The notes beneath the pieces are model-generated. The model had not been told where the DNA came from. It did not search any database and saw only the letters and a program-made list of their open reading frames with translations. From positions 1-28,849 of IMG/VR virus record IMGVR_UViG_3300034190_002544: a DNA stretch of 28,849 bases. The stretch is one strand, 5' to 3'. This stretch comes from a virus. Numbering within the stretch: the first letter of the stretch is position 1; the number at the start of each line of letters is the position of its first letter. Made by a program: the position numbers and the translations under genes. Below, in pieces: positions 840-22,474 of this stretch.

Positions 840-868
840 TTGACATTTATTAACTTTGCGTATATAAT
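840..868 (+). promoter_or_regulatory. Sigma70-type promoter of methyltransferase 1 (predicted leaderless)
   Basis: TTGACA (840-845), 17-nt spacer, TATAAT (863-868), a perfect consensus. The ATG at 875 comes 6 nt after the -10 box, where transcription would normally begin, and no Shine-Dalgarno sequence is present. Confidence 0.85.
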
Positions 869-874
869 AAACGC

Positions 875-1801
875 ATGAATAAAATTATTACTATAAACGG
901 CGATATGCGAACGGCTGCGAATCAAATTGATAATAACTCAATTGATTTGTTGTTAACTGACCCACCTTATAATATAAGTGATAGAGGTGCTCAGGAAGTT
1001 AAATGGGTTGATCCAGTAACTGGCGAAAATAAAAATGCAATACATAGTCAAAAATTTGACAAGACTTTTGCAGAAAATTGGGATAGTCTAGACAATACTG
1101 ATTTCAAACTGCAACTTATAGAATGGTCTGAAGTATGGTTTAATAAGATGCGCAAGGGTGGGACGTTTTGTGTTTTCATCAGTGATGTATATATTAGTCA
1201 TCTTTGGGAAGCAATGGAATCAGTTGGGTTTGAACCCAAGCGTGTATTCACTTGGAAAAAGCCAGCCGCAGTGCCGTTCAATAGGAATGTAAATCCAGTA
1301 AGTGGGTGTGAATATATTATATTTGGTATTAAACCCGGTGGTAAACGTACATTTAATAGTGATGCAGTTAAGGGTACAATAGTTGAACGCTATAGTCTTG
1401 CTGACAAAGTAAGTAGTATTTTGTATAAGCATATTAAAGATGATATCTACGGTAATTTGGATAAATGCTTTAATGATGCATTAGATGATGCCAAAAAAGT
1501 TTATAGTAATTTGAAAAAAACTAATGATGTAGTTCATTGTGTGGTTCCAAATACAATATCATATAGTGGCGGTTTGGGCAAAAATAAAATACATCCGACT
1601 CAAAAGCCAGAAGAAATCTTAGAATATTTTATTACATTATGTAGTAATCCCAATGATACAGTTCTAGATACTTTTGCCGGTAGTGGTAGTACAGGTTCAG
1701 CAGCAAGATTGATTAACCGAAATGCAATATTAATTGAGCGTGATCCAGAGATGTATAAAAAAATGGCAGAACGATTTAACAACTCAAATTTATTTGACTA
1801 A
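875..1801 (+). CDS. DNA N4/N6 methyltransferase (beta-class order)
   Basis: A 308-residue SAM-dependent DNA methyltransferase of the N4-cytosine/N6-adenine type (PF01555-like). The catalytic motif IV DPPY is at residues 29-32, HPTQKP at about 240-245, and the SAM-binding motif FAGSGSTG at about 267-274. Catalytic motif before SAM motif is the beta-class order. The length is normal for the family. It would methylate phage DNA, for example against host restriction or for timing; the recognition site cannot be read from the sequence. No cognate endonuclease is recognised, although the truncated upstream gene is unidentified. The start is fixed by the promoter, whose -10 box ends 6 nt upstream, so a leaderless transcript is likely. 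Confidence 0.92.
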   Translation: MNKIITINGDMRTAANQIDNNSIDLLLTDPPYNISDRGAQEVKWVDPVTGENKNAIHSQKFDKTFAENWDSLDNTDFKLQLIEWSEVWFNKMRKGGTFCVFISDVYISHLWEAMESVGFEPKRVFTWKKPAAVPFNRNVNPVSGCEYIIFGIKPGGKRTFNSDAVKGTIVERYSLADKVSSILYKHIKDDIYGNLDKCFNDALDDAKKVYSNLKKTNDVVHCVVPNTISYSGGLGKNKIHPTQKPEEILEYFITLCSNPNDTVLDTFAGSGSTGSAARLINRNAILIERDPEMYKKMAERFNNSNLFD

Positions 1802-1813
1802 TTTAAAAACGCC

Positions 1814-1842
1814 TTGACTATGAACTAAATTAATGTTATAAT
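1814..1842 (+). promoter_or_regulatory. Sigma70-type promoter of primase (predicted leaderless)
   Basis: TTGACT (1814-1819), 17-nt spacer, TATAAT (1837-1842). The primase ATG at 1849 again follows after exactly 6 nt with no Shine-Dalgarno sequence. Confidence 0.83.
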
Positions 1843-1848
1843 TTAACT

Positions 1849-2850
1849 ATGGAAATACAACAAGTATTATATTCACATTTACCGCACAAGAGACGGCAAT
1901 CATCGGGTGGGTGGTTGTCTTTTAACTGTCCTTGTTGTATAGAAAACGGCGAAGCACGTAACGATACTAGATTACGTGGTGGTATTCGCACAGATGATGA
2001 AAGTATTTCGTATCATTGTTTTAACTGCGGGTTTACTGCATCACATAAATCAGGTAGGGTCATTAACAAAAAAATGATTTTACTAATGCGTAATTTGGGC
2101 ATTCCGGATGGTGATATTAAACGTATTCAATTGCAAGCAATACGAGATAAAGAATTAGCAGACGGTCCAATGATATTTACTAGTGAAAAATCTAGTACTA
2201 TTATACCCAAATTTAAAGATTGTGAATTACCCGAAGGAAGTGTATTATTGGATGATTTACTACAAATTGACGCACCTGATAAAAGAGCAATTTTAGGTGC
2301 TAAATACCTAATAGATCGTGGACTATATGACCATGTAAGTAATATATATTGGAGTCCACATCCAGTATTTAGAAACAGAGTCATTATTCCATACTACCAG
2401 GGCAGCCGCATAGTAGGTTACACGGGCAGGGACTATACAGGAAAAGCAGATTCAAAATATATGATGAAGACTCCCAAGGACTTCATATATAATATTGATG
2501 TTATTAAGAGTCATCGACAGTATTTAATAGTAACTGAAGGTGTATTTGATGCAGCGGCATTAGATTGTGTTGCTGTAATGAGTAACGAAGCAAGTAAAGA
2601 ACAAATAGACTATATTAATTTATTTAAAGGCGAAATCATATTAAGTCCTGACAGAGATAAAGCAGGTGAAAAATTAATTAAACAGGCTATTGAAAATGGT
2701 TGGAGTGTTAGTTTTCCAAGATGGGAAAATGAAATAAAAGATGCAGCGGATGCAGTTAATAAATATGGTAAGTTATATACTTTAAAAAGTATAATTGATA
2801 GTAAGATAAGTAATAGTACTAAAATAAACGTAAAGATGCGTTTGGGATAA
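1849..2850 (+). CDS. DNA primase, T4 gp61-like
   Basis: A 333-residue primase that would make RNA primers for lagging-strand synthesis with the gp41-like helicase encoded at 5423. The N-terminal zinc ribbon has C27-x2-C30 and C57-x2-C60. The TOPRIM catalytic domain shows E230 in the TEG motif and the acidic pair D268-R-D270. The length is close to T4 gp61 (about 340). It has its own promoter and a predicted leaderless start, and the ClpP-like gene begins 19 nt downstream, so the two are probably cotranscribed. Family assignment is by motif order, not by alignment. Confidence 0.92.
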   Translation: MEIQQVLYSHLPHKRRQSSGGWLSFNCPCCIENGEARNDTRLRGGIRTDDESISYHCFNCGFTASHKSGRVINKKMILLMRNLGIPDGDIKRIQLQAIRDKELADGPMIFTSEKSSTIIPKFKDCELPEGSVLLDDLLQIDAPDKRAILGAKYLIDRGLYDHVSNIYWSPHPVFRNRVIIPYYQGSRIVGYTGRDYTGKADSKYMMKTPKDFIYNIDVIKSHRQYLIVTEGVFDAAALDCVAVMSNEASKEQIDYINLFKGEIILSPDRDKAGEKLIKQAIENGWSVSFPRWENEIKDAADAVNKYGKLYTLKSIIDSKISNSTKINVKMRLG

Positions 2851-2869
2851 TAATAGGAAATACAAATAT

Positions 2870-3556
2870 ATGGCAAAGAATCCAGTTAAAAAGAAAACAA
2901 CCAAAAAGACGGTAGGGAAGAAACCAGTTGTAGAGACAAAAGTAATCCCGTCACCCAAAGAGCAACCTGTCCCCCCACAGATGCAGATGCCACCGCCACC
3001 TACGCAACCTAAAAAGCCAGGTGAAATTCTGTATGATAACGGTGTCTTATTCATGGATAAGGAATTCAATCAAGAAAATTGTATGCCATTGGTAAAAATG
3101 ATTATGGAATATAATATGATGCCTGCAGAACAACGTCCTTCTGTTATTCATCTTTATATTAATTCTCCGGGTGGTTCAGTTGCAAGTGCAATGCATTTAA
3201 TCGATACAATTAAACAAAGTGAAATCCCAGTACATACGTATGGCATGGGCATGATTGCAAGTTGTGGGGTACTACTAATGATGTCTGGCGAAAAAGGACA
3301 TCGTTATCTTACTCAGAACACAAGTGTAATGTCACATCAATATAGTTGGGGTTCAAAAGGTAAAGAACACGAACTAATGTCGATTGTTAAAGAGTTTGAA
3401 TTATCAACTGAACGTATGCTTGACCATTATAAGAAATGTACTGGTAAAAATGAAACATATATTCGTAAGAATCTTTTGCCAGAGAGTGATGTATGGTTAA
3501 CGCCCGAGGAGGCAGTTAGGCACGGCATCGCTGATAAAATTATTACTACATACTAG
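2870..3556 (+). CDS. ClpP-like serine protease (S14) with Lys/Pro-rich N-terminal extension
   Basis: A 228-residue protein. Residues about 52-228 match the ClpP fold: INSPGGS at 97-103, then nucleophile S131 in the IASCG motif, H156 in VMSHQ, and D207 in SDVWLT, so the Ser-His-Asp triad is complete. ClpP forms a barrel peptidase that works with a Clp ATPase. Residues 1-50 are unusual: a lysine-rich segment followed by a proline-rich one, absent from bacterial ClpP. S14-type proteases in phages often mature proheads, but this one sits between primase and methyltransferase, so it could instead redirect host proteolysis. An upstream AGGA supports the ATG at 2870. Confidence 0.9.
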   Translation: MAKNPVKKKTTKKTVGKKPVVETKVIPSPKEQPVPPQMQMPPPPTQPKKPGEILYDNGVLFMDKEFNQENCMPLVKMIMEYNMMPAEQRPSVIHLYINSPGGSVASAMHLIDTIKQSEIPVHTYGMGMIASCGVLLMMSGEKGHRYLTQNTSVMSHQYSWGSKGKEHELMSIVKEFELSTERMLDHYKKCTGKNETYIRKNLLPESDVWLTPEEAVRHGIADKIITTY

Positions 3557-3569
3557 AGTATATAATATC

Positions 3570-3788
3570 ATGATAAAACCAAATGAAAATTTTAAGTTAT
3601 CAGTTAGGGATCTAGAAATCATAGAAAATGCATTAAGTGCAAAGGTTTCAAGGAGAGCACAGCGTTTAATGGAAGAATATGATGATGACTTGGCAGCAGA
3701 GTTGAAAGAAATTCGAGATTTGTTAGGAAGATTTCATAATCAAAAGATTTTTTATAGACCAAAAGACAGATTTGGTAGTGGAAAATAA
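3570..3788 (+). CDS. Small unknown protein
   Basis: 72 residues, charged and predicted mostly helical, with an acidic middle (EEYDDDLAAELKE) and a basic C-terminus. It follows the ClpP-like gene by 13 nt and is closed by a strong terminator, so it is the last gene of the primase-clpP transcription unit. No Shine-Dalgarno sequence stands out. No family is recognised; small acidic helical proteins of this kind are common in T4-like phages. Confidence 0.75.
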   Translation: MIKPNENFKLSVRDLEIIENALSAKVSRRAQRLMEEYDDDLAAELKEIRDLLGRFHNQKIFYRPKDRFGSGK

Positions 3789-3811
3789 AAGGGCGCTTCG
3801 GTGCCCTTTTT
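3787..3811 (+). terminator. Rho-independent terminator with TTCG loop
   Basis: A 10-bp stem, AAAAGGGCGC against GTGCCCTTTT (one G-U pair), around a TTCG tetraloop at 3797-3800, ending in a T run. It separates the primase-clpP unit from the next promoter, which starts 3 nt later. Confidence 0.92.
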
Positions 3812-3813
3812 AC

Positions 3814-3842
3814 TTGACAACTAATACGAATCACTATATAAA
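3814..3842 (+). promoter_or_regulatory. Sigma70-type promoter, repeated-family copy 1
   Basis: TTGACA (3814-3819), 17-nt spacer, TATAAA (3837-3842). Sequence from TAC before the -35 to GTATA after the -10 is shared with the promoters at 22446 and 22722. Confidence 0.82.
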
Positions 3843-3883
3843 GAGTGTATATTAGACTTTATGACACTATAGGAGACAGTGCA

Positions 3884-4468
3884 ATGGAAACGTCTACGTA
3901 TGCAGATCAATTAAAATCAGTAATTAATTCACAAGTATATAGTTCGGTTGTATATAGTTTGGGATCACAATTGAATGACCGAAAAGATAGATTTGATAAG
4001 GCAGATATAATTGAACAAACAGTTGAATCAGCATCAGACGGGCGCCTAGTTTGGGTTGATGATATTGGCAGAGACCATAGAGACACGCTAGAAAATTTAG
4101 ATATCGAATTTAAATACATGACTGATGGTATGTTTACCAAACGTAACAATCAAAAAAAGACAGTTAAAGTAAAAATAAAAAATAGTTTAGGCGAAAACAA
4201 AGGCACCACAATTGAAAACCCTGCTGATTTTTATATGCTAGGTCAACAAAATGCAATTGCAATTATCAGTGCAGATGATATTAAACCATATTTGGTTAGT
4301 GTATCTGACGGAATTGAAGCGCATATTCCATTTAATGCATTGGAGTTTATTTTTCGACCGGAAGATATTTCAGATACCAAACTAGTAGAAGTTAATTATA
4401 AAGATGCAAAACGCAAAGCACAACGTGCGGTAATTGAATCTGTAAAACAAAGTATAGAAAATGCTTGA
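3884..4468 (+). CDS. Unknown protein in the DNA-metabolism region
   Basis: 194 residues. The ATG at 3884 is chosen because AGGAGA lies just upstream. An in-frame GTG at 3845 falls about where transcription should start from the promoter at 3814 and is rejected. The protein is soluble and charged, with a lysine-rich middle (about residues 85-105) and a helical Lys/Gln-rich C-terminus. No domain is recognised. Its placement between ClpP/primase and a methyltransferase suggests an early or middle role. The TGA stop lies inside the -35 box of the next promoter. Confidence 0.8.
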   Translation: METSTYADQLKSVINSQVYSSVVYSLGSQLNDRKDRFDKADIIEQTVESASDGRLVWVDDIGRDHRDTLENLDIEFKYMTDGMFTKRNNQKKTVKVKIKNSLGENKGTTIENPADFYMLGQQNAIAIISADDIKPYLVSVSDGIEAHIPFNALEFIFRPEDISDTKLVEVNYKDAKRKAQRAVIESVKQSIENA

Positions 4469-4493
4469 TATCTTATTCGATTTATAGTATAAT
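4465..4493 (+). promoter_or_regulatory. Sigma70-type promoter of methyltransferase 2
   Basis: TTGATA (4465-4470), 17-nt spacer, TATAAT (4488-4493). The -35 box contains the TGA stop of the upstream gene. Unlike methyltransferase 1, this gene has a short leader with AAGGAG at 4505-4510. Confidence 0.82.
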
Positions 4494-4515
4494 TATCAGA
4501 TATTAAGGAGAGTAA

Positions 4516-5382
4516 ATGAATCATACAGTTTATAATCAAGATTGTACTAGCGGTATTCGTGAACATATAGGAGATGGAACAGTAGATTTAATATTTACTG
4601 ACCCGCCGTATGGCATAGAGGGTGATAAACTTGACGCTCATTACAATCGTGATGAAGGTAATGTAGTTCCAGGTTATGTAGAAGTTCCATTGGAAACATA
4701 TGGCGAATTCTCTAAACAATGGATTACTGAATGTGCAAGAGTCTTGCGTCCTGGTGGCAGTATGTATATTGTTAGTGGCTATACAAATTTACATCATATA
4801 CTTAATGCATTACATTCAACTGACTTAAAAGAAATAAATCATATTATTGCACAATATAGTTTTGGTGTATCAACTAAAAACAAATTTGTAAGTAGTCACT
4901 ATCATGTTTTATTTTGGTCAAAGCCAGAAACAAGCAAACAAAAGCGCACATTTAATACTAATGCTTATTACACAGACAGTAAAGATAGTTATCACGACCG
5001 ATTAACAGTACAAACAATGCCACGAAGTCATAAGCCGGGACAAATTAAAAACAAGAACCAACTGAATGAAGATTGGATTGAAAAGTTTATACTATATAGC
5101 AGTAATCGTGGCGATGTAGTAATGGATCCATTTTGTGGCGGCTTTACTACACCGAGAACTGCATTACGTTACGGTAGAGAGTTTGTTGGGTTTGAAATGA
5201 ATAAGAATGCATATGATGCTTTTTTGCCAACACTAAATGAAGTTGAAGTATTACCTGACCCAGCCCCTATTGCACCATCTGCTGAAGAACTTGCCAAAAG
5301 AGAAAAGCAGCGCGAAGGTTGGAAGCGTGATCGGTTGCGCAAAAAAGAAGAAACTAATTTAAACCCGGCACTGTTTGATTAA
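4516..5382 (+). CDS. DNA N4/N6 methyltransferase 2 with atypical SAM motif
   Basis: A 288-residue methyltransferase of the same broad class as the one at 875, with DPPY at residues 29-32 near the N-terminus and the SAM motif near residue 204. The SAM motif reads DPFCGGFTTP rather than the usual DPFxGSGT, so the glycine loop is altered. The C-terminal 50 residues are proline- then Lys/Arg/Glu-rich, which suggests a DNA-contacting tail. AAGGAG upstream supports the start. Two divergent methyltransferases within 4 kb may give the phage two different modification specificities. Confidence 0.88.
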   Translation: MNHTVYNQDCTSGIREHIGDGTVDLIFTDPPYGIEGDKLDAHYNRDEGNVVPGYVEVPLETYGEFSKQWITECARVLRPGGSMYIVSGYTNLHHILNALHSTDLKEINHIIAQYSFGVSTKNKFVSSHYHVLFWSKPETSKQKRTFNTNAYYTDSKDSYHDRLTVQTMPRSHKPGQIKNKNQLNEDWIEKFILYSSNRGDVVMDPFCGGFTTPRTALRYGREFVGFEMNKNAYDAFLPTLNEVEVLPDPAPIAPSAEELAKREKQREGWKRDRLRKKEETNLNPALFD

Positions 5383-5387
5383 AAGTG

Positions 5388-5416
5388 TTGACTTTTATAC
5401 ATAGAAATGATATAAT
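5388..5416 (+). promoter_or_regulatory. Sigma70-type promoter of helicase (predicted leaderless)
   Basis: TTGACT (5388-5393), 17-nt spacer, TATAAT (5411-5416). The ATG at 5423 follows after 6 nt with no Shine-Dalgarno sequence. Confidence 0.84.
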
Positions 5417-5422
5417 ATACAA

Positions 5423-6844
5423 ATGTCAGAAGTAAAAAATTATAGCACAGACTTACAGAAATTATTCATTCAATTCATGGTGACTAATCCTGAACTATAT
5501 ACTAGGATCCGAGGGATTATTAAGCCTGAATATTTTGACCGCAGTGTTCGTCCTGTGGTCAAACAACTTATTGATTATAGTGAAGATTATTCTACACTGC
5601 CAGATACTGCAATTATTAAGGCAGAAACGGGGCAAGACATTGAGAAGTTGGACAACATAACCCAGCACGAAGAATGGTTTGTGGATGAGTTTGAGACATT
5701 TTGCCGGCACAAGGCTATTGAGAAGGCTATTATCGATAGCACAGATTTACTTGAGACTGGCAAATACGGTGAAGTAGAACTTAGAATTAAAGAGGCTGTT
5801 CAAATTGGACTGGCACGTAGTTTAGGAACAGATTATTTTGCTGATCCTAGAGGTGTGCTTGAACGGATGAAAGACAATAATGGTCAGATTACGACTGGTT
5901 GGAAATCTCTTGATGATAAGTTATATGGTGGCATTAATCGTGGGGAGATTACGATTTTTGCAGGCGGCTCCGGGGCAGGTAAATCCCTTTTTATGCAAAA
6001 TATGAGCCTGAATTGGGCGGAGGCTGGGTTGAATTGTGTCTACTTCACATTGGAGTTATCCGAGGAACTTTCAAGTATGCGTATGTATGCAATGCAGACG
6101 GACCGCAGTACTAGACGCATTTTTAAAGACCTAGATGATGTTGAACTACAAGTCAAAGCGAAAGGCAAACAGTCCGGTATGCTACGTATAAAGTATCTTC
6201 CGAGTGGTTCAACAATCAATGATCTAAGGTCTTACTTGAAAGAACTTCAGATACAAACTGGCAAAACAGTTGATTGTATGTGTATTGACTATCTAGATTT
6301 GTTAATGCCAGCAACTAAAAAGGTCCAAGCAGGTGATACATTCACCAAAGACAAATATGTTACTGAAGAAATGCGTAACTTTTCTATGGAAACACAGACT
6401 GTTACAGTGACAGCATCACAATTAAATCGTAGTGCAGTTGAAGAAATTGAATTTGATCACTCTCATATTGCTGGTGGCATTAGTAAAATTCAAACTGCAG
6501 ATAACGTTATAGGTATCTTTACATCTAATGCAATGCGTGAGAGAGGTCAATACCAACTTCAATTGTTAAAAACACGATCATCTTCTGGTGTTGGTAGTAA
6601 AGTAAGTTTATTATTTGATAGAGATAGTTTGCGCATTACAGATGATCCAGACCAAAATAGTAATGGCGCCGGCACACCATCATCAACAAACGTTTCTTCT
6701 AGTGTGGTTGACCAACTTAGAAAGAAAACTACTCTAAACAAATCAGATGAAGATGATACTCCGGTATTTGAAAAGACGCAGGCAGCAAGTTCACTCAGAT
6801 CGATGCTTAAAACTAAAAGTCGTTCTGCTTTTGACGAAACTTGA
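5423..6844 (+). CDS. Replicative DNA helicase, DnaB / T4 gp41-like
   Basis: A 473-residue RecA-fold hexameric helicase that would unwind DNA at the phage fork and partner the primase at 1849. The N-terminal helical domain (about 1-135) is followed by Walker A GGSGAGKS at 181-188, Walker B CIDYLDLL at 287-294, and the DnaB-type motif ASQLNRS at 331-337. The length matches T4 gp41 (about 475). The Ser/Thr-rich C-terminal tail (about 400-473) looks disordered. The start is set by its own promoter. The TGA stop overlaps the first late-promoter box at 6843, which marks the early/late boundary. Confidence 0.95.
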   Translation: MSEVKNYSTDLQKLFIQFMVTNPELYTRIRGIIKPEYFDRSVRPVVKQLIDYSEDYSTLPDTAIIKAETGQDIEKLDNITQHEEWFVDEFETFCRHKAIEKAIIDSTDLLETGKYGEVELRIKEAVQIGLARSLGTDYFADPRGVLERMKDNNGQITTGWKSLDDKLYGGINRGEITIFAGGSGAGKSLFMQNMSLNWAEAGLNCVYFTLELSEELSSMRMYAMQTDRSTRRIFKDLDDVELQVKAKGKQSGMLRIKYLPSGSTINDLRSYLKELQIQTGKTVDCMCIDYLDLLMPATKKVQAGDTFTKDKYVTEEMRNFSMETQTVTVTASQLNRSAVEEIEFDHSHIAGGISKIQTADNVIGIFTSNAMRERGQYQLQLLKTRSSSGVGSKVSLLFDRDSLRITDDPDQNSNGAGTPSSTNVSSSVVDQLRKKTTLNKSDEDDTPVFEKTQAASSLRSMLKTKSRSAFDET

Positions 6845-6851
6845 TAAATAC
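6843..6851 (+). promoter_or_regulatory. Late-type promoter box GATAAATAC
   Basis: GATAAATAC, 19 nt before the ATG at 6870, overlapping the helicase stop codon. It resembles the T4 late consensus TATAAATA and is repeated before most structural genes here. Confidence 0.7.
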
Positions 6852-6869
6852 ACTTAACGGAGAATTGTT

Positions 6870-7106
6870 ATGAAACGTAAAAGTCTATTTGAAGAACTAA
6901 ACAGCATATCTTATGATAAAGATAATAAGCGGCTAGTTGAACAAAAGGGTGAACACCTTATTGCAGGTGCGATACATTTGATGGAATTCATTGAAAATAA
7001 TTTTGATGAAGAAACCTCAAATGATTTGCAAAAACGTTTAGTTAACAGTATCCGTACAAAAGACCCGCGGAAGTTTAAGCGAGGCATGAATAGTGTAGAC
7101 AAATAA
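6870..7106 (+). CDS. Small unknown protein, first gene of the late block
   Basis: 78 residues, charged and predicted helical, with a basic C-terminus (RTKDPRKFKRGMN). It has a clear Shine-Dalgarno sequence (ACGGAGA) and a late-type promoter box just upstream. Its stop codon shares a base with the next ATG (TAATG), so translation of the next gene is probably coupled. No family is recognised. Confidence 0.75.
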   Translation: MKRKSLFEELNSISYDKDNKRLVEQKGEHLIAGAIHLMEFIENNFDEETSNDLQKRLVNSIRTKDPRKFKRGMNSVDK

Positions 7107-7324
7107 TGGATTTTGAACAGCAGTTACACCAACTAAAGGTTCTAGCAGGTATATATAAGCCCTATGATGTATCTCAACATCAGGAGAATATTTCACATAC
7201 TGGCCAAGAAAAAGGCGAGTATCAGAAAAAGAATAATATACAGCCTGGAACGGATGAGTGGTTTAAGTTGTGGTTTGCAAGACCGCAATTAACTGGTGAA
7301 AATCCATTTGGAGATAAGAAATGA
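7106..7324 (+). CDS. Small unknown protein
   Basis: 72 residues with no convincing Shine-Dalgarno sequence; its ATG overlaps the previous stop by one base, so coupling is likely. The C-terminal half carries a Trp-rich segment (GTDEWFKLWFARPQLTGENPFG). It overlaps the next gene by 4 nt (ATGA). The role is unknown; the position in the late operon suggests an accessory of the large KxDG protein that follows or of the virion. Confidence 0.75.
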   Translation: MDFEQQLHQLKVLAGIYKPYDVSQHQENISHTGQEKGEYQKKNNIQPGTDEWFKLWFARPQLTGENPFGDKK

Positions 7325-8667
7325 AAATCAGTGAGATTATTTTAAGTCAAGGCCTTGAGCGCAGATTTAGAGGGCCTCGTAAACCTCGCCAAAAGCAAAT
7401 AGGATTTCACTCAAAACTAAAGGGTCTGTTTGATAAAGATTTGAGTGAAGCAAAAAATACGCACTTGGATCATGCTGAGGAATTAATCTTCATGTATGGG
7501 CAAGAGGGATTAAAACGTGTTGTTAGCACTTACTCCAAATTATTATCTTCATTGGATGGAGACGGCGGCGGCGATGCGATTACAACAAAATGGGACGGCG
7601 CCCCTGCGATATTTGCCGGCGTTGATCCAGAAGATGGAGAATTCTTTGTTGGAACCAAAGGCGTATTTGCAAAAAGCCCTAAATTAAATAAAAAGCCGGA
7701 AGACATTGAAAAAAACCATGCTGATGTCACCAAAAACGGCGAAGCAATAAGTAAAAAAGGATTGCGTGATAAATTATATGCATCACTTGAACACCTTAAA
7801 AACTTGGGCATTTCTGGAGTAGTTCAAGGTGATCTTCTTTTTACACGTGATGATTTAAAAGAAGTACAGATTGAAGGTGAACAGTATATAGCGTTCAAGC
7901 CTAATACTATAACATACGTTGTTCCTGCCGATAGTAATACTGCACGTGAAATGTTATCATCTGATCTTGGTGTAGTATTTCATACCAGTTATGAGGGCGA
8001 TACATTAGCAGATATGAGTGCTAGATTTGGCTATGATGCAAGTAACTTGAATAAATCATCTAATGTTTGGTACACAGATGCACGTATTAAAGATGTATCG
8101 GGGCAAGTAAATCTTAATAAGAAGGAAGTTAGTGCAATTAAAACTGCAATTAACGAACTTGCAAGTTTGGATATCCCTAGTCCAGAAGTATTTAAGAAAA
8201 TTAATAATAGTATTGGTGGAATAGATATAGTTGCTGCACTTAAGGCACACGCAAACACACCTATTCGTTCAGGCAATGCATTAGAACAAGATGCAGATAA
8301 ATTCGTATCAGATTTTATTAATAAATTAAAAGACAAGTTTGATACTGATATGACTAAATTAAAAACTGGGCCAGAAGGAAAAGCAGGACTAGCAAAATTA
8401 GATAAAAAGAAACAAGTTGTTGAGTTTATTGAAGAGAATGCGCAAAATATTGCTAATATGTATAGAGCGTATTTAAAAACCGAAGCAGTAAAAATGATGT
8501 TTCAGCGCAAAATGCGAGACATTAAAGCGATTGATAGTTTTATTGAACAGCCAGATGGCTCTTTTAACGTAACTGACCCTGAGGGTTTTGTTATCGTAGA
8601 CCATGTTGGCCGCGCCATGAAAATTGTTGATAGATTAGAATTTAGTGCTGCGAATTTCGCAAAGTAA
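7321..8667 (+). CDS. KxDG nucleotidyltransferase-like protein (DUF6267-like)
   Basis: 448 residues. Residues 88-200 carry an ordered set of motifs like those of the RNA/DNA ligase nucleotidyltransferase superfamily: K90-W-D-G93 (motif I, where lysine is adenylylated in ligases), then GVVQGDLLF at about 166-174 (like the acidic motif III), then YIAFKPN at 189-195 (like motif V). Proteins of this type in marine T4-like phages are, as I recall, grouped as DUF6267. The C-terminal half is helical with no recognised domain. GGAGA upstream and a 4-nt overlap support the start. It may be a polynucleotide ligase or an RNA-modifying enzyme, although it lies in the virion block. Confidence 0.72.
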   Translation: MKISEIILSQGLERRFRGPRKPRQKQIGFHSKLKGLFDKDLSEAKNTHLDHAEELIFMYGQEGLKRVVSTYSKLLSSLDGDGGGDAITTKWDGAPAIFAGVDPEDGEFFVGTKGVFAKSPKLNKKPEDIEKNHADVTKNGEAISKKGLRDKLYASLEHLKNLGISGVVQGDLLFTRDDLKEVQIEGEQYIAFKPNTITYVVPADSNTAREMLSSDLGVVFHTSYEGDTLADMSARFGYDASNLNKSSNVWYTDARIKDVSGQVNLNKKEVSAIKTAINELASLDIPSPEVFKKINNSIGGIDIVAALKAHANTPIRSGNALEQDADKFVSDFINKLKDKFDTDMTKLKTGPEGKAGLAKLDKKKQVVEFIEENAQNIANMYRAYLKTEAVKMMFQRKMRDIKAIDSFIEQPDGSFNVTDPEGFVIVDHVGRAMKIVDRLEFSAANFAK

Positions 8668-8679
8668 TTAGGAAATAAT

Positions 8680-8889: not shown

Positions 8890-9730
8890 AAAAAAATATA
8901 CAGCAAGCCAATGGGCAACAATATATGGTGGCCACGAAATTGATGACAATGATGATAAAAGTTTACAATTAGTACACGAACTAACTGAAAGCCGCTTGTT
9001 TAGAAATAAAAAGATAGCAAGTGAGGTTAATTTAGATGATGCTGCCAATGTTTCATTCATGTATTTAATGCTATTAAATATTTTTAATAAAGATTATGAT
9101 TATGCGCCATTAGCAAGTGAATATGCAAAACGTACAGCAGCCTTTAGAAATTTTGATACATTTAGAACAAGTGGAACGGATCTATACATTTCTTTAAACC
9201 GTTTGATGGGCAAAGACCAAGATGATAGTAATGAAAAAGATGTAATTGCTAAGAAAAGATTATCACCTAAAAAAGCAGATTTAGTACAATATCTAACTCA
9301 TATTGGAAATAACAAAACTAATTCAGCGTTTGAGCAAAAAATGTTACTTAGATTCCAAAACCAATTGAATATACAAGATAGTATGATGAAATCAATGCGC
9401 CGATTGATTGGTGATTGGGATAATTTGAACCAAAATCAACGTGCACTAGTAGTAACACGCTGTGTTCAATATATGCGTTCCAAAGCACTCCGCAGTGAGT
9501 TTATGAAACCATTACTATCTTTTCAAAAGCGTGGCAATTATATGGTAAATGATAGAAACGATAAAAAGAAAAAGATTTGGGATAAACCTATTGTTAAAGG
9601 GGCAGCAGCAATTGGTGGCATTTATGCTATTAGTAAGGGCGCTGAAGAACTAGGCAAACGATTGGCAAAAACAACGTATGATAGACCAACAAAATCTGGT
9701 CTAACAAAATTTCAATCCAGAAGAAAGTAA
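8882..9730 (+). CDS. Unknown late protein
   Basis: 282 residues, helical and charged. Near the C-terminus (about 236-256) a Gly/Ala-rich hydrophobic segment is flanked by lysine-rich stretches (KKKK before, Arg/Lys tail after), which could touch membrane or nucleic acid. The AAGGGG Shine-Dalgarno sequence lies inside the end of the previous gene. Position in the late block suggests a virion or assembly protein; no family is recognised. Confidence 0.8.
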   Translation: MSEKKYTASQWATIYGGHEIDDNDDKSLQLVHELTESRLFRNKKIASEVNLDDAANVSFMYLMLLNIFNKDYDYAPLASEYAKRTAAFRNFDTFRTSGTDLYISLNRLMGKDQDDSNEKDVIAKKRLSPKKADLVQYLTHIGNNKTNSAFEQKMLLRFQNQLNIQDSMMKSMRRLIGDWDNLNQNQRALVVTRCVQYMRSKALRSEFMKPLLSFQKRGNYMVNDRNDKKKKIWDKPIVKGAAAIGGIYAISKGAEELGKRLAKTTYDRPTKSGLTKFQSRRK

Positions 9731-9752
9731 TATATAATTTCTGGTACAAAAA

Positions 9753-9761
9753 AGATAAATA
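9753..9761 (+). promoter_or_regulatory. Late-type promoter box GATAAATAA
   Basis: GATAAATAA 48 nt upstream of the ATG at 9809, in the intergenic gap, same motif family as the box at 6843. Confidence 0.65.
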
Positions 9762-9808
9762 AAAGTATAGGACAATAGAGTCCCAAAACATTTAATGGAG
9801 AAAATAAA

Positions 9809-10072
9809 ATGGTAGCAAAAGTACATGAATCATATGATGCAGGTCAGTTCCTAACAGGCTCACTAGTACATTTCACAGCAGACGCAGGCGCGGGCGCAGT
9901 TGACAACAAAGTTCTTGTTGAAGCAGTAGGCACACGTGCAACAGTAGTTATCCTAGGTGTTAACGGCGGCGCAGGCACAGATGTTCGTTTCGCAGTTGAA
10001 AACAACGGCGCATGGGATGCAGCAACACTAAGTACAGCAACTGGTTACACAGTAACAGACTTTGATTACTAA
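9809..10072 (+). CDS. Small abundant virion-type protein (possible decoration protein)
   Basis: 87 residues, Gly/Ala/Val/Thr-rich and predicted all-beta, with no Cys and almost no Lys-rich stretches. Codon use differs from neighbours: repeated GCA, GGC and AAC and few of the AT-rich codons seen around it, which suggests strong expression. It is a single-gene unit with its own late-type box, a good Shine-Dalgarno sequence (TGGAG) and its own terminator. These traits fit a high-copy capsid decoration or fibre protein; this is inferred, not recognised by family. Confidence 0.8.
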   Translation: MVAKVHESYDAGQFLTGSLVHFTADAGAGAVDNKVLVEAVGTRATVVILGVNGGAGTDVRFAVENNGAWDAATLSTATGYTVTDFDY

Positions 10073-10097
10073 TACATAAACTCTATCTATAGAGTAT

Positions 10098-10126
10098 AAA
10101 GACCCGGCATTGCTGGGTCTTTTTTA
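10098..10126 (+). terminator. Rho-independent terminator
   Basis: AAAGACCC (10098-10105) pairs with GGGTCTTT (10115-10122), extended inward by a G-C and a G-U pair, followed by a T run. A smaller hairpin, CTCTA/TAGAG, lies just upstream at 10081-10094. Confidence 0.92.
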
Positions 10127-10148
10127 TTTTAAATCATTAATAATTATT

Positions 10149-10157
10149 GATAAATAT
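10149..10157 (+). promoter_or_regulatory. Late-type promoter box GATAAATAT
   Basis: GATAAATAT 27 nt before the ATG at 10184, directly after the upstream terminator. Confidence 0.68.
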
Positions 10158-10183
10158 TCATATACATTATTAGGAGAAACAAT

Positions 10184-10573
10184 ATGGCAAGAATACACGG
10201 TTCTGCGGGTTCAAGTGAAAATATATCAGGCAACTTGAATTTTTATACAATATATGTAAAGACATTGGATATCACTTCAACTGGTGATATATTAGACCAG
10301 TCACAGCAAAATTTTGATGACGTATGTAACTTAATTAATCTAGTTGCACAACCAGTAATAATGAATAGTCCCATTCCAGTAACACTTACTGGTCTTGCTC
10401 CAACATTAACTGGTAATGGTATGATTTTTAAATTTGCAGTAGAACACGGACAAGCGTTTGAACGTGCTGGTGACAATGTTGCACTACTTAAAGAAATATT
10501 CTACGGTGTAGATATTAATGGTGTACCAATGGATCCTATCACGATGGAATTTGAGATGTCAGACCTACTATAA
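10184..10573 (+). CDS. Unknown structural-type protein
   Basis: 129 residues, mostly beta-rich with many Thr/Ile/Val/Asn, acidic overall, ending in an acidic strand (TMEFEMSDLL). TAGGAGA upstream supports the start. It is a single-gene late unit: late box upstream, structured RNA and terminator downstream. Likely a virion component; no family recognised. Confidence 0.78.
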   Translation: MARIHGSAGSSENISGNLNFYTIYVKTLDITSTGDILDQSQQNFDDVCNLINLVAQPVIMNSPIPVTLTGLAPTLTGNGMIFKFAVEHGQAFERAGDNVALLKEIFYGVDINGVPMDPITMEFEMSDLL

Positions 10574-10672
10574 ATCTACATTCTATTGAGCGCCCACTAC
10601 CTAGTATGGTCTTGGAATCATTCGCATAATGAAATAGAATGTGGAGATCCCCCATTAAGCAGTGAATGTAAA
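10574..10672 (+). ncRNA. Structured RNA candidate: long outer stem enclosing two hairpins
   Basis: A 13-bp outer stem pairs 10575-10587 with 10633-10645 (one G-U pair). It encloses two hairpins: CCACTAC/GTATGG at 10594-10609 with one bulged C and a CTA loop, and TCATT/AATGA at 10618-10632 with a CGCAT loop. This gives a three-way-junction-like fold in a 70-nt core, with no ORF, followed 30 nt later by a terminator. It could be a stable 3' UTR end of the upstream late mRNA or a separate small RNA. The fold was read by eye. Confidence 0.6.
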
Positions 10673-10675
10673 GAA

Positions 10676-10702
10676 AAAACCCAGTATTAATACTGGGTTT
10701 TT
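10676..10702 (+). terminator. Rho-independent terminator, perfect inverted repeat
   Basis: ACCCAGTATT and AATACTGGGT form a perfect 10-bp inverted repeat with A-rich sequence before and seven or more T after. It closes the unit of the gene at 10184 and its structured 3' region. Confidence 0.92.
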
Positions 10703-10733
10703 TTATATGTGGATAATCCTTTTAAACTAAAAT

Positions 10734-10742
10734 GATAAATAC
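10734..10742 (+). promoter_or_regulatory. Late-type promoter box GATAAATAC
   Basis: GATAAATAC 26 nt before the chosen ATG at 10768. Because transcription would begin after this box, the in-frame ATG at 10732 is excluded. Confidence 0.7.
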
Positions 10743-10767
10743 ATATAACAATTCGTGGAGAAGAACG

Positions 10768-11016
10768 ATGTCTATAAATGAACCGCAATTAGCAGCACTT
10801 GAGATGCAGAGTTTAGAAACTCATGTGGCAGTTAATCATGAACGATTTAGGAAACTAGATGATTCAATCAGGCGGTTAGAAACATTAGTAGAAAGACAGA
10901 CATTGGATACAAAGGAACAATTTACGGAGTTAAAAAAGATAGTTGTTTGGGCAAGTTCAACATTATTTGGTACATTGCTAATTGCACTATTGACTTCTGT
11001 GTTTAAGGTGATATAA
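10768..11016 (+). CDS. Small coiled-coil protein with C-terminal membrane helix (XhlA-like topology)
   Basis: 82 residues from the ATG at 10768, which has GGAGAAG upstream; an earlier in-frame ATG at 10732 overlaps the promoter box. Residues about 5-55 are a charged amphipathic helix (likely coiled coil), and 60-81 form one hydrophobic segment. This layout is like XhlA-type proteins, which accompany phage holins, but the match is topological only. It shares one base with the next gene's start (TAATG). Confidence 0.7.
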   Translation: MSINEPQLAALEMQSLETHVAVNHERFRKLDDSIRRLETLVERQTLDTKEQFTELKKIVVWASSTLFGTLLIALLTSVFKVI

Positions 11017-11300
11017 TGCTTATAGAAGAAATTGTAACACCTGATGAAGAATTTTATGAAGCAAAACTTGTTTATGCTCGTAGTGGCAAAAAAGTAGTAC
11101 GTAAATATCGTTGTTCGTCAGGTAGATTAAAAGGTAAAACAGTTGCTAACCCCACTGCATGCTTTAAGCCAGTTAATGTTAAGAAACGATTTACATTAGC
11201 AAAAACTAAAGCAAAAATGGGTTCTCGTATGGCACGAAAATCAAAAATGACTAAGAGAATGAATCCAGCAAGTAAACGCTTAAAAATGCTGAATAGGTAG
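11016..11300 (+). CDS. Small, highly basic unknown protein
   Basis: 94 residues. The N-terminal 15 are acidic; the rest is strongly basic, with a C-terminal Lys/Arg/Met-rich helix (about 60-94). A Cys pair (C32, C48) flanks a basic loop. The charge suggests nucleic-acid or capsid-interior binding. It is translationally coupled to the previous gene. No family is named. Confidence 0.75.
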   Translation: MLIEEIVTPDEEFYEAKLVYARSGKKVVRKYRCSSGRLKGKTVANPTACFKPVNVKKRFTLAKTKAKMGSRMARKSKMTKRMNPASKRLKMLNR

Positions 11301-11307
11301 AGAAACA

Positions 11308-11868
11308 ATGGGATTAAAAGATAGTATAGAAAACGCAATGGTCACTGAAACTTATAATACAAGATTGACTGGTATCGCAGATTTAGTTGGTTCCAGTGAT
11401 GATGATGTACGTAACCGAATGAAAACTCTTGATTTCGGTAAATATGTTGAATTGATGCGGGCATTACGTGATAGAAATGAAAATGCAGCCAAAGAAGTTT
11501 TGGGGTTCAGTGTCGATGAAGCATATTCTTCGGGCTCCCAAGGTACACGTACTTCATTAACACCGGGTGAAATGAAGGGCGTACAACAGGCTCAAGCGCA
11601 GCAAGCGCAGCAACAGTCGGGTGGCGATTCTGATCCTGCTACAATGTCCAAGAAGTCACAGGCAATGCAACGATTGGGCAAGAAGGCCTTGGGCGGTATT
11701 AGCGGTCAACAGGCAGCAAAAGCATTAGATAGAGCCGAGCAAGGAAAAGCATTAACGCCTGTGCAACGTTTTGCGATGGCGCAGCAAGCAAAATCATTGG
11801 GCGCTCTTGCAAATGATCCTAAAACAGCAATACAATTTAGAAGTCTATTAAATAAACTCAATAAGTAA
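11308..11868 (+). CDS. Unknown late protein with Gln/Ala-rich linker
   Basis: 186 residues. The N-terminal helical domain (about 1-70) is followed by a low-complexity Gln/Ala linker (about 93-105, from repeated CAG/CAA/GCG codons) and a basic helical C-terminal domain (about 110-186). A weak AGAG precedes the ATG. It sits in the late operon led by the box at 10734. Scaffold or virion-internal roles are possible; no family is recognised. Confidence 0.75.
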   Translation: MGLKDSIENAMVTETYNTRLTGIADLVGSSDDDVRNRMKTLDFGKYVELMRALRDRNENAAKEVLGFSVDEAYSSGSQGTRTSLTPGEMKGVQQAQAQQAQQQSGGDSDPATMSKKSQAMQRLGKKALGGISGQQAAKALDRAEQGKALTPVQRFAMAQQAKSLGALANDPKTAIQFRSLLNKLNK

Positions 11869-11879
11869 AGGAGTTTAAT

Positions 11880-12074
11880 ATGAAATTACAGGAAGTTTTA
11901 GGTGGCATATATGTTATGGTCACCGAAGAAGAAAATGATCTTTTGGTAGAATTTTTTTCTGAAAATGAATATGTTAATGAATCGCAATTAAGTGATAGAA
12001 ATGCCTTAATCGCTGATAAACTAGTGCATAAAGGCGTATTAATACCAACACTAAAAGGGTATCGTGTCAACTAA
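11880..12074 (+). CDS. Small unknown protein
   Basis: 64 residues, acidic N-terminal half with a hydrophobic LLVEFFSENEYV core, basic C-terminal end. An AAGGAG Shine-Dalgarno sequence gives a confident start. The alternation of helix and short strand with GYRVN at the end could be a small winged-helix-like fold, but no motif proves this. Confidence 0.72.
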   Translation: MKLQEVLGGIYVMVTEEENDLLVEFFSENEYVNESQLSDRNALIADKLVHKGVLIPTLKGYRVN

Positions 12075-12085
12075 CGGAGGACAAA

Positions 12086-12712
12086 ATGACAGCACCTAGC
12101 CAAAAAGATGTAAATGCAATGTCAAATCTGATGAAAGCACTTAACGGTGACAAATCAGCATTGAAAGAGCAAGTTGCCTATGAAAAACAAGCAGCAGAGC
12201 AATCTGGACATATAGATACATCTATCGGAGTAAAGACAGCAGATATTAAAGCAATGGAAAATATTTTGAATGCGTTCAACAGTGCCAGTTCAAATGTTTC
12301 TAAAAAAGTTGCAACAACGATGAATGAGTCTACAAAGACACCAAATGGTGTAAAAGTAGGAATGTTTTCAGTTGAGAAGACTGATGATGGTTACTATGAT
12401 ATTAGAGACAATCGTTCAAATGATACACTATTTGAGAATATTTGTTTATACGAAACTGCATATGTTATTACAAAACACTTGAATTCTGGGAAGAAAATGA
12501 ACTCACCAGAATTAACAAAAATAATGGCGAGTAATGCAGTATTTGAACAATTTTATTTTGATGCGATACAATATAAAGATACATATGCAAAAGCGAAAAA
12601 GCGTAAAGATATTAGTAAAATGAATGTTGCCGAAGCAAGATTTACTAGAGCAAAATCAGAAGCAGGAAGTGCCAAACGTAGTATTAAATCTATATATGAA
12701 TCGATTAAATAG
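12086..12712 (+). CDS. Unknown late protein
   Basis: 208 residues, preceded by ACGGAGGA. The N-terminal third is a charged helix (Lys/Glu/Gln/Ala), the middle (about 85-135) contains a beta-rich segment (VGMFSVEKTDDGYYDIRDN), and the C-terminus (about 155-208) is a Lys/Arg/Ala-rich helix. Last gene before the next late box, so probably virion or assembly related. No family recognised. Confidence 0.78.
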   Translation: MTAPSQKDVNAMSNLMKALNGDKSALKEQVAYEKQAAEQSGHIDTSIGVKTADIKAMENILNAFNSASSNVSKKVATTMNESTKTPNGVKVGMFSVEKTDDGYYDIRDNRSNDTLFENICLYETAYVITKHLNSGKKMNSPELTKIMASNAVFEQFYFDAIQYKDTYAKAKKRKDISKMNVAEARFTRAKSEAGSAKRSIKSIYESIK

Positions 12713-12733
12713 ATTATAAAATGAAACTAAAAA

Positions 12734-12742
12734 GATAAATAC
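12734..12742 (+). promoter_or_regulatory. Late-type promoter box GATAAATAC
   Basis: GATAAATAC 32 nt before the ATG at 12775. Confidence 0.7.
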
Positions 12743-12774
12743 ATAATATAACTTTATGTATTGGGGCAAATATC

Positions 12775-13785
12775 ATGAATAAAACAATTTTTTACAACTC
12801 TAACCCAGTTGCTATCTCTTCAAAAATGAATGAGTATATGAAAAGCAATTTCGGTTATGAAATAGAAGGTGATTTAGAATCACTAAGAGAAGCGAAAGTT
12901 CAATTGGAAGCACAAAAGCGTGAAATGACTTCGAACTATCAGGATCGTGCATATGTTGAAAACATGCTTATGATTGAAACAATCAAATCACTATTGAAAG
13001 CACACGTTGCGGAAGGTGAATTACCAGCAGGTTTAAAAGCATATCAAGATGCAAAGAAAAAAGGCAAAGCGCCGGCTAAGAAGAAAGCCAAAGGCGACGG
13101 TAAGATGCCAATGGATGACAATGGCACACCAGACGATAAGTCAGATGATAAACCGGCATTCTTAAAGAATGAATCAGTAGCAACTGAGGGTAAATACAAA
13201 TCAGATGCACAGCGTAAAGCAGTACATGCGTCAAAAGCAGAAAAAACAAACGAAGGTGATGCACCAAAGTTTGATACAATGACAAAGTATAGCAATACTT
13301 ACGAAGCACCAAAGGAATATAAAATGAAAAAAGAAAAGTTAGAAGAAGGCCTACTAGCACAACTTAACAAATTACTTGAAAGTGATGCTGCAGAAGCGGA
13401 AGTTATGATGGCGGCTCGTGGTATAGTAGATGAACTACAAGACATGATTGAAAAACTAGGCAAACTACAAAACGATCAACTTGGCCCACTGACAGATGAA
13501 ATGGCATATTCACACGGTCCAGAAAGAGCAGCATCATTTAAAGATGCAGTAAATGATGCAGTAGCAGGATTATTGGGACAAGCACGTGCAACAAAAGATA
13601 CTGTGAATGACGCAGTTTTGGTTCTGAATGGCGAAGCTCCAGCAGATGATATGTCTGCAGGTGACGTAATCGGCGGTGATATGCAAGATGATTTCGAAGA
13701 TGATGTAGAAGTAGATTTTGCAAGCGGCGATGAAGCAGCATCTGGTCCTAATGACGAACCTCTAGGCAGAGCAAAGAGATCATAA
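12775..13785 (+). CDS. Unknown virion-type protein with Lys-rich and Asp-rich low-complexity segments
   Basis: 336 residues. A helical N-terminus (about 1-85) is followed by a Lys/Ala run (about 92-105), an Asp/Lys segment with K-x-D-D repeats (about 108-125), a charged helical middle, and a strongly acidic Asp/Ala/Gly tail (about 285-330). The opposite-charge low-complexity parts suggest a scaffold or assembly protein, perhaps processed. It has its own late box and a GGGG Shine-Dalgarno sequence. No family is recognised. Confidence 0.8.
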   Translation: MNKTIFYNSNPVAISSKMNEYMKSNFGYEIEGDLESLREAKVQLEAQKREMTSNYQDRAYVENMLMIETIKSLLKAHVAEGELPAGLKAYQDAKKKGKAPAKKKAKGDGKMPMDDNGTPDDKSDDKPAFLKNESVATEGKYKSDAQRKAVHASKAEKTNEGDAPKFDTMTKYSNTYEAPKEYKMKKEKLEEGLLAQLNKLLESDAAEAEVMMAARGIVDELQDMIEKLGKLQNDQLGPLTDEMAYSHGPERAASFKDAVNDAVAGLLGQARATKDTVNDAVLVLNGEAPADDMSAGDVIGGDMQDDFEDDVEVDFASGDEAASGPNDEPLGRAKRS

Positions 13786-13786
13786 T

Positions 13787-14107
13787 ATGAAAATTTCAAC
13801 ACTTTTAAGCGAAAATGACAATTATAAGTCGCAACTTATTAATGATATAAATGTATATCTTGTTCGCTTAAAGGCGAATGATATTAATACCATCGGAACG
13901 GATATAATGGTACGTGAATTAAATGATTTGGGTCATTCTATTACCCCAGAAAGTTTGATTGATATGTTATCAAATAGTAAATATGTTAGTAATGTAAGTT
14001 TAAATAGTATTGACTTAGAATTTGCCCCCACATCAAATAAAGATGATGATTCTAGAGATACAGTTAAAAAACTTGCTTCTAAAGCAACATCGAGGAGAAT
14101 GAAATAA
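13787..14107 (+). CDS. Unknown small late protein
   Basis: 106 residues starting 2 nt after the previous stop. The first 75 residues look like a small alpha/beta domain (a helix, then VRELNDLGHSITPESLIDML, then a strand), followed by a charged tail. The VRELNDLG..I.PE.L segment has a helix-turn-helix-like rhythm, but this is only suggestive. It shares one base with the next start (TAATG). Confidence 0.72.
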   Translation: MKISTLLSENDNYKSQLINDINVYLVRLKANDINTIGTDIMVRELNDLGHSITPESLIDMLSNSKYVSNVSLNSIDLEFAPTSNKDDDSRDTVKKLASKATSRRMK

Positions 14108-14595
14108 TGCCACTTATCATAAAAGGCGGTAAAGAACCGAAAGTAGTTTCTAAAAAAGAAATGCAGAATTTACTAAAATCTATTGAAAACAATACAACTG
14201 AAGCAGTGTTGGCATCGTTATCACCAGAGGTTGCAGAAAAACGTAGGGAAACATTAGTAAATAAAGCAGCAAGAGAGAATGCTGCAAGAATTGCAGATGC
14301 ACAGGCTGAATCCGCAGCAAAAAATCTTGAAGCAGAAAAAGAACAAATTCAAATTGCAGTTGAAGAAAAAGTAAAAGATGCAGTAGTAGAAACCGTCACT
14401 CCAATTACAGTAGAAAAGACTGAAACTAGTTTAATCATCGACACTAAAAATAATAAAAAAGTAGAAACTAATCCTGATTTTGAAACTATGACTAAAAAAG
14501 AAATTGATATTTGGGCAGATGAAAATCTAGGTGTGCAATTGGATCGTAGAAATACAAAAGCAACTATGATTGAAGAATTAAAAAAACATTTGTAA
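14107..14595 (+). CDS. Unknown protein with C-terminal HeH/SAP-like segment
   Basis: 162 residues. A long Glu/Ala/Lys helix (about 15-95) is followed by a beta/disordered linker and a C-terminal segment (about 128-162) of the form MTKKEIDIWADENLG...TKATMIEELKKH. This matches the short helix-extension-helix (HeH/SAP-like) domains often found at the ends of phage structural proteins and in DNA-binding proteins. GAGGAG lies upstream. Last gene of the late block before a strong terminator. Confidence 0.75.
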   Translation: MPLIIKGGKEPKVVSKKEMQNLLKSIENNTTEAVLASLSPEVAEKRRETLVNKAARENAARIADAQAESAAKNLEAEKEQIQIAVEEKVKDAVVETVTPITVEKTETSLIIDTKNNKKVETNPDFETMTKKEIDIWADENLGVQLDRRNTKATMIEELKKHL

Positions 14596-14620
14596 TTAAT
14601 TTAAAAAATTATAATCTATT

Positions 14621-14649
14621 AAAGCGTAAGATTAATCTTACGCTTTTTT
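14621..14649 (+). terminator. Rho-independent terminator, perfect inverted repeat
   Basis: AAAGCGTAAGATT and AATCTTACGCTTT form a near-continuous palindrome at 14621-14646 followed by T residues. It ends the first late block. Confidence 0.92.
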
Positions 14650-14697
14650 CTTGGCATATAATAATTGCTATATAACTATATTATAGTAAATAAAGAC

Positions 14698-14726
14698 TTG
14701 TAATTTATATAAAAGTATAGTATAAT
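14698..14726 (+). promoter_or_regulatory. Sigma70-type promoter of exonuclease (predicted leaderless)
   Basis: TTGTAA (14698-14703), 17-nt spacer, TATAAT (14721-14726). The ATG at 14733 follows after 6 nt with no Shine-Dalgarno sequence, as for the genes at 875, 1849 and 5423. Confidence 0.78.
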
Positions 14727-14732
14727 AGAAAT

Positions 14733-15422
14733 ATGTTAAAAGAAACTTATACCTATGCTCCCCTATCACGTGTGAATGTAGACGGATCCCGTCACTATCA
14801 AACACCTGAAGGTAAGCCCTTGCCAAGTGTTACAACAGTTTTGAGTGCACTTGCAGATAAAACAGCGTTACATGAATGGCGCCGCCGTGTTGGCAATGAA
14901 GAAGCAAATCGTATTATGAACCTTGCTACTGGAATTGGCACACAAGTACACTTGCATTTAGAAAAGTTTATTCTGGAAGAAGATAGACCAAGTGGATCAA
15001 ATCTCATCCATCAGATGGCCAAAGAACTTTCAGACATTGTTATCAAAGATGGTCTTAGTAAGATTAGTGAAGTATGGGGGACAGAAGTACCTCTATATTA
15101 CCCTGGGTTATATGCTGGTACCGCAGATTGCATTGGCGTATATAAAGGACAGCAAGCAATTATTGACTTCAAAACAACACGTAAACCTAAAAAACGTGCA
15201 TGGATAGATGATTATTTCTTACAAGGCGCAGCATATGCAGCAGCACACAATGAATTATATGGCACTGATATTCGCACTATTGTTATTATGATGATTGGGT
15301 GGGACGCTGAGGCAGATAATCTCGGTAATTATCAAGAATTTGTTGTAGAAGGGGAAGAATTCGATAAGTATTCATTGTTATGGGCTACTAAGGTTCAAGA
15401 GTATTTTGATAAATACATGTAA
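14733..15422 (+). CDS. PD-(D/E)XK exonuclease, MGME1/RecB-like
   Basis: A 229-residue nuclease. The core shows H73 in GTQVHLHLE, D132 in AGTADCIG, then D145-F-K147 in IIDFKTT, and Q164 in the following helix: the order of the RecB/Cas4/MGME1 branch. Such enzymes process single-stranded DNA ends; here a role in recombination, replication or host-DNA breakdown is likely. No cysteine cluster for a Cas4-type iron-sulfur centre is visible. It has its own early-type promoter although it lies between structural blocks. The last codons overlap the late box of the next gene. Confidence 0.9.
   Translation: MLKETYTYAPLSRVNVDGSRHYQTPEGKPLPSVTTVLSALADKTALHEWRRRVGNEEANRIMNLATGIGTQVHLHLEKFILEEDRPSGSNLIHQMAKELSDIVIKDGLSKISEVWGTEVPLYYPGLYAGTADCIGVYKGQQAIIDFKTTRKPKKRAWIDDYFLQGAAYAAAHNELYGTDIRTIVIMMIGWDAEADNLGNYQEFVVEGEEFDKYSLLWATKVQEYFDKYM
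15408..15416 (+). promoter_or_regulatory. Late-type promoter box GATAAATAC
   Basis: GATAAATAC inside the last codons of the exonuclease gene, 23 nt before the structural gene at 15440. Confidence 0.68.
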
Positions 15423-22449: not shown

Positions 22450-22474
22450 CAATCTAAACGAATCACTGTATAAA
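22446..22474 (+). promoter_or_regulatory. Sigma70-type promoter, repeated-family copy 2
   Basis: TTGACA (22446-22451), 17-nt spacer, TATAAA (22469-22474). Its spacer shares ACGAATCACT with the promoter at 3814. The -35 includes the TGA of the glycosyltransferase. Confidence 0.82.

Follow-up and report, generated by a model that had tools for sequence, protein, structure and literature searches.

Predicted leaderless mRNAs for replication and DNA-modification genes of a large tailed phage, with a promoter-to-start spacing conserved in relatives

Four DNA-metabolism genes of a large tailed phage are each preceded by a sigma70-type promoter sequence whose -10 box ends exactly 6 nt before the ATG, lack a Shine-Dalgarno (SD) sequence, and share this geometry with homologous genes of related phages. 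The layout is best explained by translation from leaderless mRNAs, with +1 predicted on the A of the ATG. Judged from sequence comparison, we put the probability that the four mRNAs are leaderless or nearly so at roughly 0.85.

Promoter geometry at four genes of the window

The DNA analysed, here called the window, is the complete IMG/VR record IMGVR_UViG_3300034190_002544, a linear fragment of 28,849 bases from a large tailed-phage contig. It is AT-rich (GC 0.352) and its genes lie mostly in one direction. A preliminary description had reported a TTGACA-like box, a 17-nt spacer, TATAAT, 6 nt and then ATG, without an SD, at the genes starting at 875, 1849, 5423 and 14733, and all of these coordinates and spacings proved correct (Table 1). 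The start codon is ATG in each case, and the distance of 6 nt from the -10 box is within the ~6-7 nt expected of leaderless mRNA genes. The -35 hexamer of the exonuclease promoter, TTGTAA, is only a four-of-six match. Homologues of the replication module of T4-like and jumbo phages (primase, DnaB-like helicase, UvsW, UvsX) are represented by phrog_47 and phrog_19 in the window and by phrog_16 and phrog_97 in its relatives.

Table 1. Promoters, genes and the late-type motif discussed in the text; positions are those of the window.
Feature	Position	Strand	Details
Sigma70-type promoter TTGACA-N17-TATAAT (12/12)	840-868	+	-35 840-845, -10 863-868; 6 nt before ATG 875
N6/N4 DNA methyltransferase, predicted leaderless	875-1801	+	PF01555 3.3e-37, phrog_67; no SD
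Promoter TTGACT-N17-TATAAT (11/12)	1814-1842	+	-35 1814-1819, -10 1837-1842; 6 nt before ATG 1849
DNA primase, predicted leaderless	1849-2850	+	phrog_47 3e-40; no SD
Contrast promoter TTGATA-N17-TATAAT, same sigma70 type	4465-4493	+	22 nt upstream of second methyltransferase
Second methyltransferase, SD-led	4516-5382	+	SD AAGGAG, -9.2 kcal/mol
Promoter TTGACT-N17-TATAAT (11/12)	5388-5416	+	-35 5388-5393, -10 5411-5416; 6 nt before ATG 5423
DnaB-like replicative helicase, predicted leaderless	5423-6844	+	PF03796 5.9e-19, phrog_19 5.9e-68; no SD
Late-type motif GATAAATA	6843-6850	+	before SD-led gene 6870
Promoter TTGTAA-N17-TATAAT (10/12)	14698-14726	+	-35 14698-14703, -10 14721-14726; 6 nt before ATG 14733
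phrog_298 exonuclease, predicted leaderless	14733-15422	+	phrog_298 6e-57; no SD

TATAAT-N6-ATG occurs four times on the plus strand of the 28,849-base record, in every case at one of these starts, and once on the minus strand, at no gene start. When the 60 nt before each of the 48 genes were subjected to 2000 dinucleotide shuffles, a promoter with at least 10 of 12 matches at exactly 6 nt was expected at 0.03 genes with a shuffle maximum of 2, while four genes were observed. A general promoter scan of the window showed no enrichment (86 found, 88 expected). Thus, the signal consists in the position and quality of the promoters, not in their number.

The energies of SD pairing with the anti-SD sequence were +1.6, +1.8, +0.2 and -0.1 kcal/mol for the four starts versus about -3 to -9.5 kcal/mol for most other window genes. 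Most of the remaining genes with a weak SD overlap or abut the preceding gene, so translational coupling is possible there.

In sigma70 promoters the -10 box ends with a T at about -7. Hence 6 nt followed by ATG place the A at +1. Each of the four genes would be transcribed from a sigma70-type promoter of its own, most likely by a host-type holoenzyme initiating at the A of the start codon, and 70S ribosomes would accept the 5'-terminal AUG with no use of an SD, as they do for lambda cI. The latter is the type case of leaderless mRNAs, which are recognised by 70S ribosomes via the 5'-terminal AUG (PMC4965119). Translation of leaderless mRNAs is reported to persist in the presence of kasugamycin (PMC4929434).

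Two further loci of the window were recorded on the side. A small reverse-strand cassette adjoining a DUF1127 gene contains a gene for ATP synthase F0 subunit c (75 aa, 23826-24050, minus strand, PF00137 1.2e-10), which is absent from the relatives G003 and G004 although the flanking cassette genes are conserved there, and to which none of 50,697 phage records gave a match, though the low-complexity filter may hide some. On the plus strand, a CDF cation-efflux transporter (PF01545, 25859-26788) lies beside an NAD-dependent epimerase (24946-25869).

Spacing in relatives and in cultured phages

Relatives of the helicase, exonuclease, primase and methyltransferase were fetched from viral contigs, and upstream contexts were counted as independent if their identity over 40 nt did not exceed 80%. 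The preliminary description had named homologous genes of related phages as the place to look for the same spacing, and there promoter and 6-nt distance were indeed kept although the flanking DNA differs. The distance was 6 nt in 14 of 18 independent contexts of the exonuclease (expected 0.06), in 9 of 10 of the primase (expected 0.04; the remaining one had 7 nt) and in 20 of 61 of the helicase (expected about 0.18, computed on an earlier helicase set). A UvsW-like helicase, located with the leaderless layout ~8 kb before the window begins, in an overlapping record (G001), had 6 nt in 5 of 37 (expected 0.10). For these four families all contexts at 6 nt start with ATG. Methyltransferase relatives were few, with the layout present in some (L206, L209, L213) and absent in others, and this family is less informative with respect to spacing. 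The layout was also seen at a phrog_11778 DNA-polymerase-family gene of a 342-kb relative. A helicase search of genome contigs for the host found no relative.

The strict pattern matched 54 times in 18 relative records, versus 4 times for the reversed pattern. A genome-wide histogram covered 1.01 Mb, the window plus four relatives, and took in promoters of at least 10/12 ahead of ORFs of 80 aa or more: 23 promoters were at 6 nt, with 4 each at 5 and 7 nt, and the reversed-hexamer control was flat; a secondary peak at 9 nt came largely from another promoter class in the relative G008. IMG/VR was scanned for the exact consensus with ATG at 6 nt and, as a control, at 11 nt, counting distinct sites among the matches listed, which came from at least 120 stretches per scan. 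Among these, ATG opened an ORF of 60 aa or more at 63% of 129 sites at 6 nt versus 25% of 114 sites at 11 nt. With the bait consensus left out the peak stayed at 6-7 nt (11 ORFs among the matches listed), in loci that had been picked for such sites, and the reversed-hexamer control was flat.

Among cultured phages a close parallel was provided by PA5oct and Paride (Wroclawvirus), jumbo phages of P. aeruginosa PAO1. As in the window, their homologous primase and exonuclease genes follow 12/12 promoters, at distances of 6 and 7 nt, respectively; their proteins are 37-54% identical to the counterparts studied here. In PA5oct these are the only two genes where a promoter of at least 10/12 lies 5-8 nt before a long ORF: TTGACA-N17-TATAAT-N6-GTG at the primase, the start of which would be GUG (GTG at PA5oct position 145890), and TTGACA-N17-TATAAT-N7-ATG at the exonuclease (ATG at 158242). 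Paride has the same promoter sequences at both. Unlike in the window the helicase start of PA5oct and Paride is SD-led, and so is that of UvsW. The primase of SCTP-2 is preceded by TTGACA-N16-TAGCAT-N6-ATG. In the enterobacterial jumbo relatives Munch, RaK2 and CBB the leaderless layout was absent at the genes checked. Compared with the predicted leaderless start, the deposited primase start is 6 nt upstream in PA5oct, 102 nt downstream in Paride (L760, gap 136-240) and 96 nt downstream in SCTP-2 (L743, gap 292-388).

Two layouts and the question of a regulon

The distance from the -10 box to the helicase start was bimodal with 24 contexts at 5-7 nt, none at 8-17 nt and 9 at 18-28 nt. The latter mostly had an SD (mean energy -4.1 kcal/mol). 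For some 6-nt contexts the computed SD energy takes in bases ahead of the predicted +1 that would be absent from the mRNA. Helicase contexts without a near promoter were mostly SD-led or coupled. Mapped onto the helicase tree, the leaderless state requires seven changes or more and is present in deep branches. Thus, the layout is either old or was repeatedly acquired, and the tree fits both. Two pairs of nearly identical helicases (L056 and L050, L063 and L058) differ in their upstream layouts, a leader with a weak SD versus a 6-nt leaderless start, which looks like an exchange of the regulatory region.

Within the window the SD-led second methyltransferase has a promoter of the same sigma70 type as the four genes (Table 1). 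It seems that a stand-alone early or middle promoter can be equipped in two ways, one of which is the leaderless start; within the sigma70 class, whether a gene is leaderless or SD-led is a further choice, independent of promoter class. A second early-type promoter family, ACTTGACA...TATAAAG, was found before SD-led genes of the window at 3813-3842, 22447-22475 and 22720-22752.

The preliminary description had further proposed that the four genes form a regulon translated by the leaderless route and distinct from SD-led late genes. The leaderless prediction held in every sequence test, but a single regulon set apart by its mode of translation did not: UvsX is SD-led in four relatives, in G008 the B-family DNA polymerase (PolB) begins directly at the stop codon before it and in G009 it has an SD-like GGAG, the window gene at 4516 is SD-led, and so is the helicase in several relatives. 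The SD-led sigma70 promoters of the IMG/VR sample, too, have DNA-metabolism genes downstream, which implies that function tracks the sigma70-type promoter and not the translation mode. On the grounds of UvsX, PolB and the SD-led sigma70 genes we rejected one leaderless regulon. Among the matches listed, 25 of 50 proteins of strict-pattern genes belonged to the PHROG category 'DNA, RNA and nucleotide metabolism' and none to the head, tail or lysis classes; yet 6 of 10 genes of the SD-led control, likewise among the matches listed, were of the DNA-metabolism type (about 5 by category plus UvsX). The functional bias therefore does not count in favour of a leaderless regulon.

The contrast with SD-led late genes was borne out on the level of the promoter. 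A late-type TGATAAATA/AGATAAATA motif, which resembles the T4-type late promoter, was found before SD-led genes and is enriched on the coding strand of the relatives over a reversed control. In addition to the copy listed in Table 1, the same motif precedes the window genes at 9809, 10184, 10768, 12775, 15440 and 20863. It is the promoter, late-type GATAAATA versus sigma70, that separates the four genes from the late genes.

Alternative readings and biological meaning

If the ATG near +1 were a 5'-terminal upstream AUG, the true start would lie downstream behind an SD, as in a class of 5'-uAUG mRNAs known from E. coli (PMC4965119). These resemble the window genes in having an AUG at the (here predicted) 5' end, and comparable arrangements exist in phages: in early-type promoters of G008 an ATG that follows the -10 box at 6-9 nt is itself followed by an AAGGAG-like SD and an in-frame ATG, strict-pattern matches of PA5oct fall in leaders, and for some promoters of PA5oct and of one 342-kb relative the ATG found 6-9 nt further on is probably not where the gene starts. 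Thus, an ATG near +1 proves nothing by itself, and the G008 promoters and PA5oct matches led us to reject the notion that every match at 6 or 9 nt is leaderless. In the E. coli mRNAs, however, the main ORF is the SD-led one downstream, whereas in the window the 5' AUG opens the main ORF: the N-termini of the four window families align from residue 1, SD-led helicase homologues (L042, L081) use a start codon at the same position, and the annotated later ATG of the Paride primase leaves out the CPLC cysteine motif. We consider an upstream AUG at the four genes very unlikely. As a separate observation, in-frame ATG, SD-like stretch and second in-frame ATG at G008 48194, 80879, 88592, 116298 and 236985 may be dual starts.

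An equally small chance is given to the genes residing on long transcripts from upstream, with promoter-like boxes that add little and starts that work as SD-less ones. Transcriptional read-through is common in phages, and most window genes are codirectional. Yet read-through does not predict an exact 6-nt spacing and a near-consensus -35 in unrelated upstream DNA, and a terminator-like hairpin with a T tract (14621-14646) lies ahead of the exonuclease promoter. That the spacing is inherited similarity in AT-rich DNA, a position without selection, is hardly credible: close relatives do have upstream DNA in common, but the contexts counted shared no more than 80% identity over 40 nt, 5-20 of them were seen versus 0.04-0.18 expected, and the reversed-hexamer controls were flat.

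Leaderless transcription from a -10 box about 6-7 bp before the ORF is known from Deinococcus-Thermus, where a TANNNT element is enough, no -35 being required, and roughly a third of genes are concerned without functional bias, while E. coli RpoD needs a -35 (PMC12340547). The window differs by a near-consensus -35 at 17 nt and by confinement of the layout to few genes. A -10-only promoter of the Deinococcus type probably does not describe it; all four genes have a -35 that matches TTGACA at 4-6 of 6 positions at 17 nt. Lambda cI, transcribed from PRM, is like the predicted window genes a phage transcript beginning at AUG, but it is a repressor gene of a temperate phage, whereas the window genes are replication and DNA-modification genes with their own promoters in large, probably lytic phages. 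To our knowledge only a small number of leaderless phage genes are on record, with a repressor as the classic example. In the open-licence PMC literature we found no paper on leaderless replication genes in lytic phages. Leaderless mRNA as such is already known; as far as we found, a conserved leaderless replication-gene set in large, probably lytic phages is new.

A likely reason for the leaderless layout is that replication genes scattered among late genes would need stand-alone promoters, presumably active before the late genes, and a leaderless promoter of about 35 nt would be the most compact complete expression unit. It is possible, though we think it improbable, that leaderless starts keep translation of replication genes going when SD-dependent initiation is low, be it because the host is stressed or dormant or because the phage has altered host translation. 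Replication of Paride on dormant P. aeruginosa is reported to depend on (p)ppGpp/RpoS (PMC10761892), and a link between the leaderless-type promoters of the PA5oct/Paride family and growth on dormant cells is speculation.

If the leaderless reading is true, large phages use SD-independent initiation for core functions such as primase, helicase, exonuclease and a UvsW-like helicase. The promoter-N6-ATG arrangement would then be a sequence rule for finding leaderless genes, by which start annotation would be corrected, e.g. for the deposited primases of PA5oct, Paride and SCTP-2.
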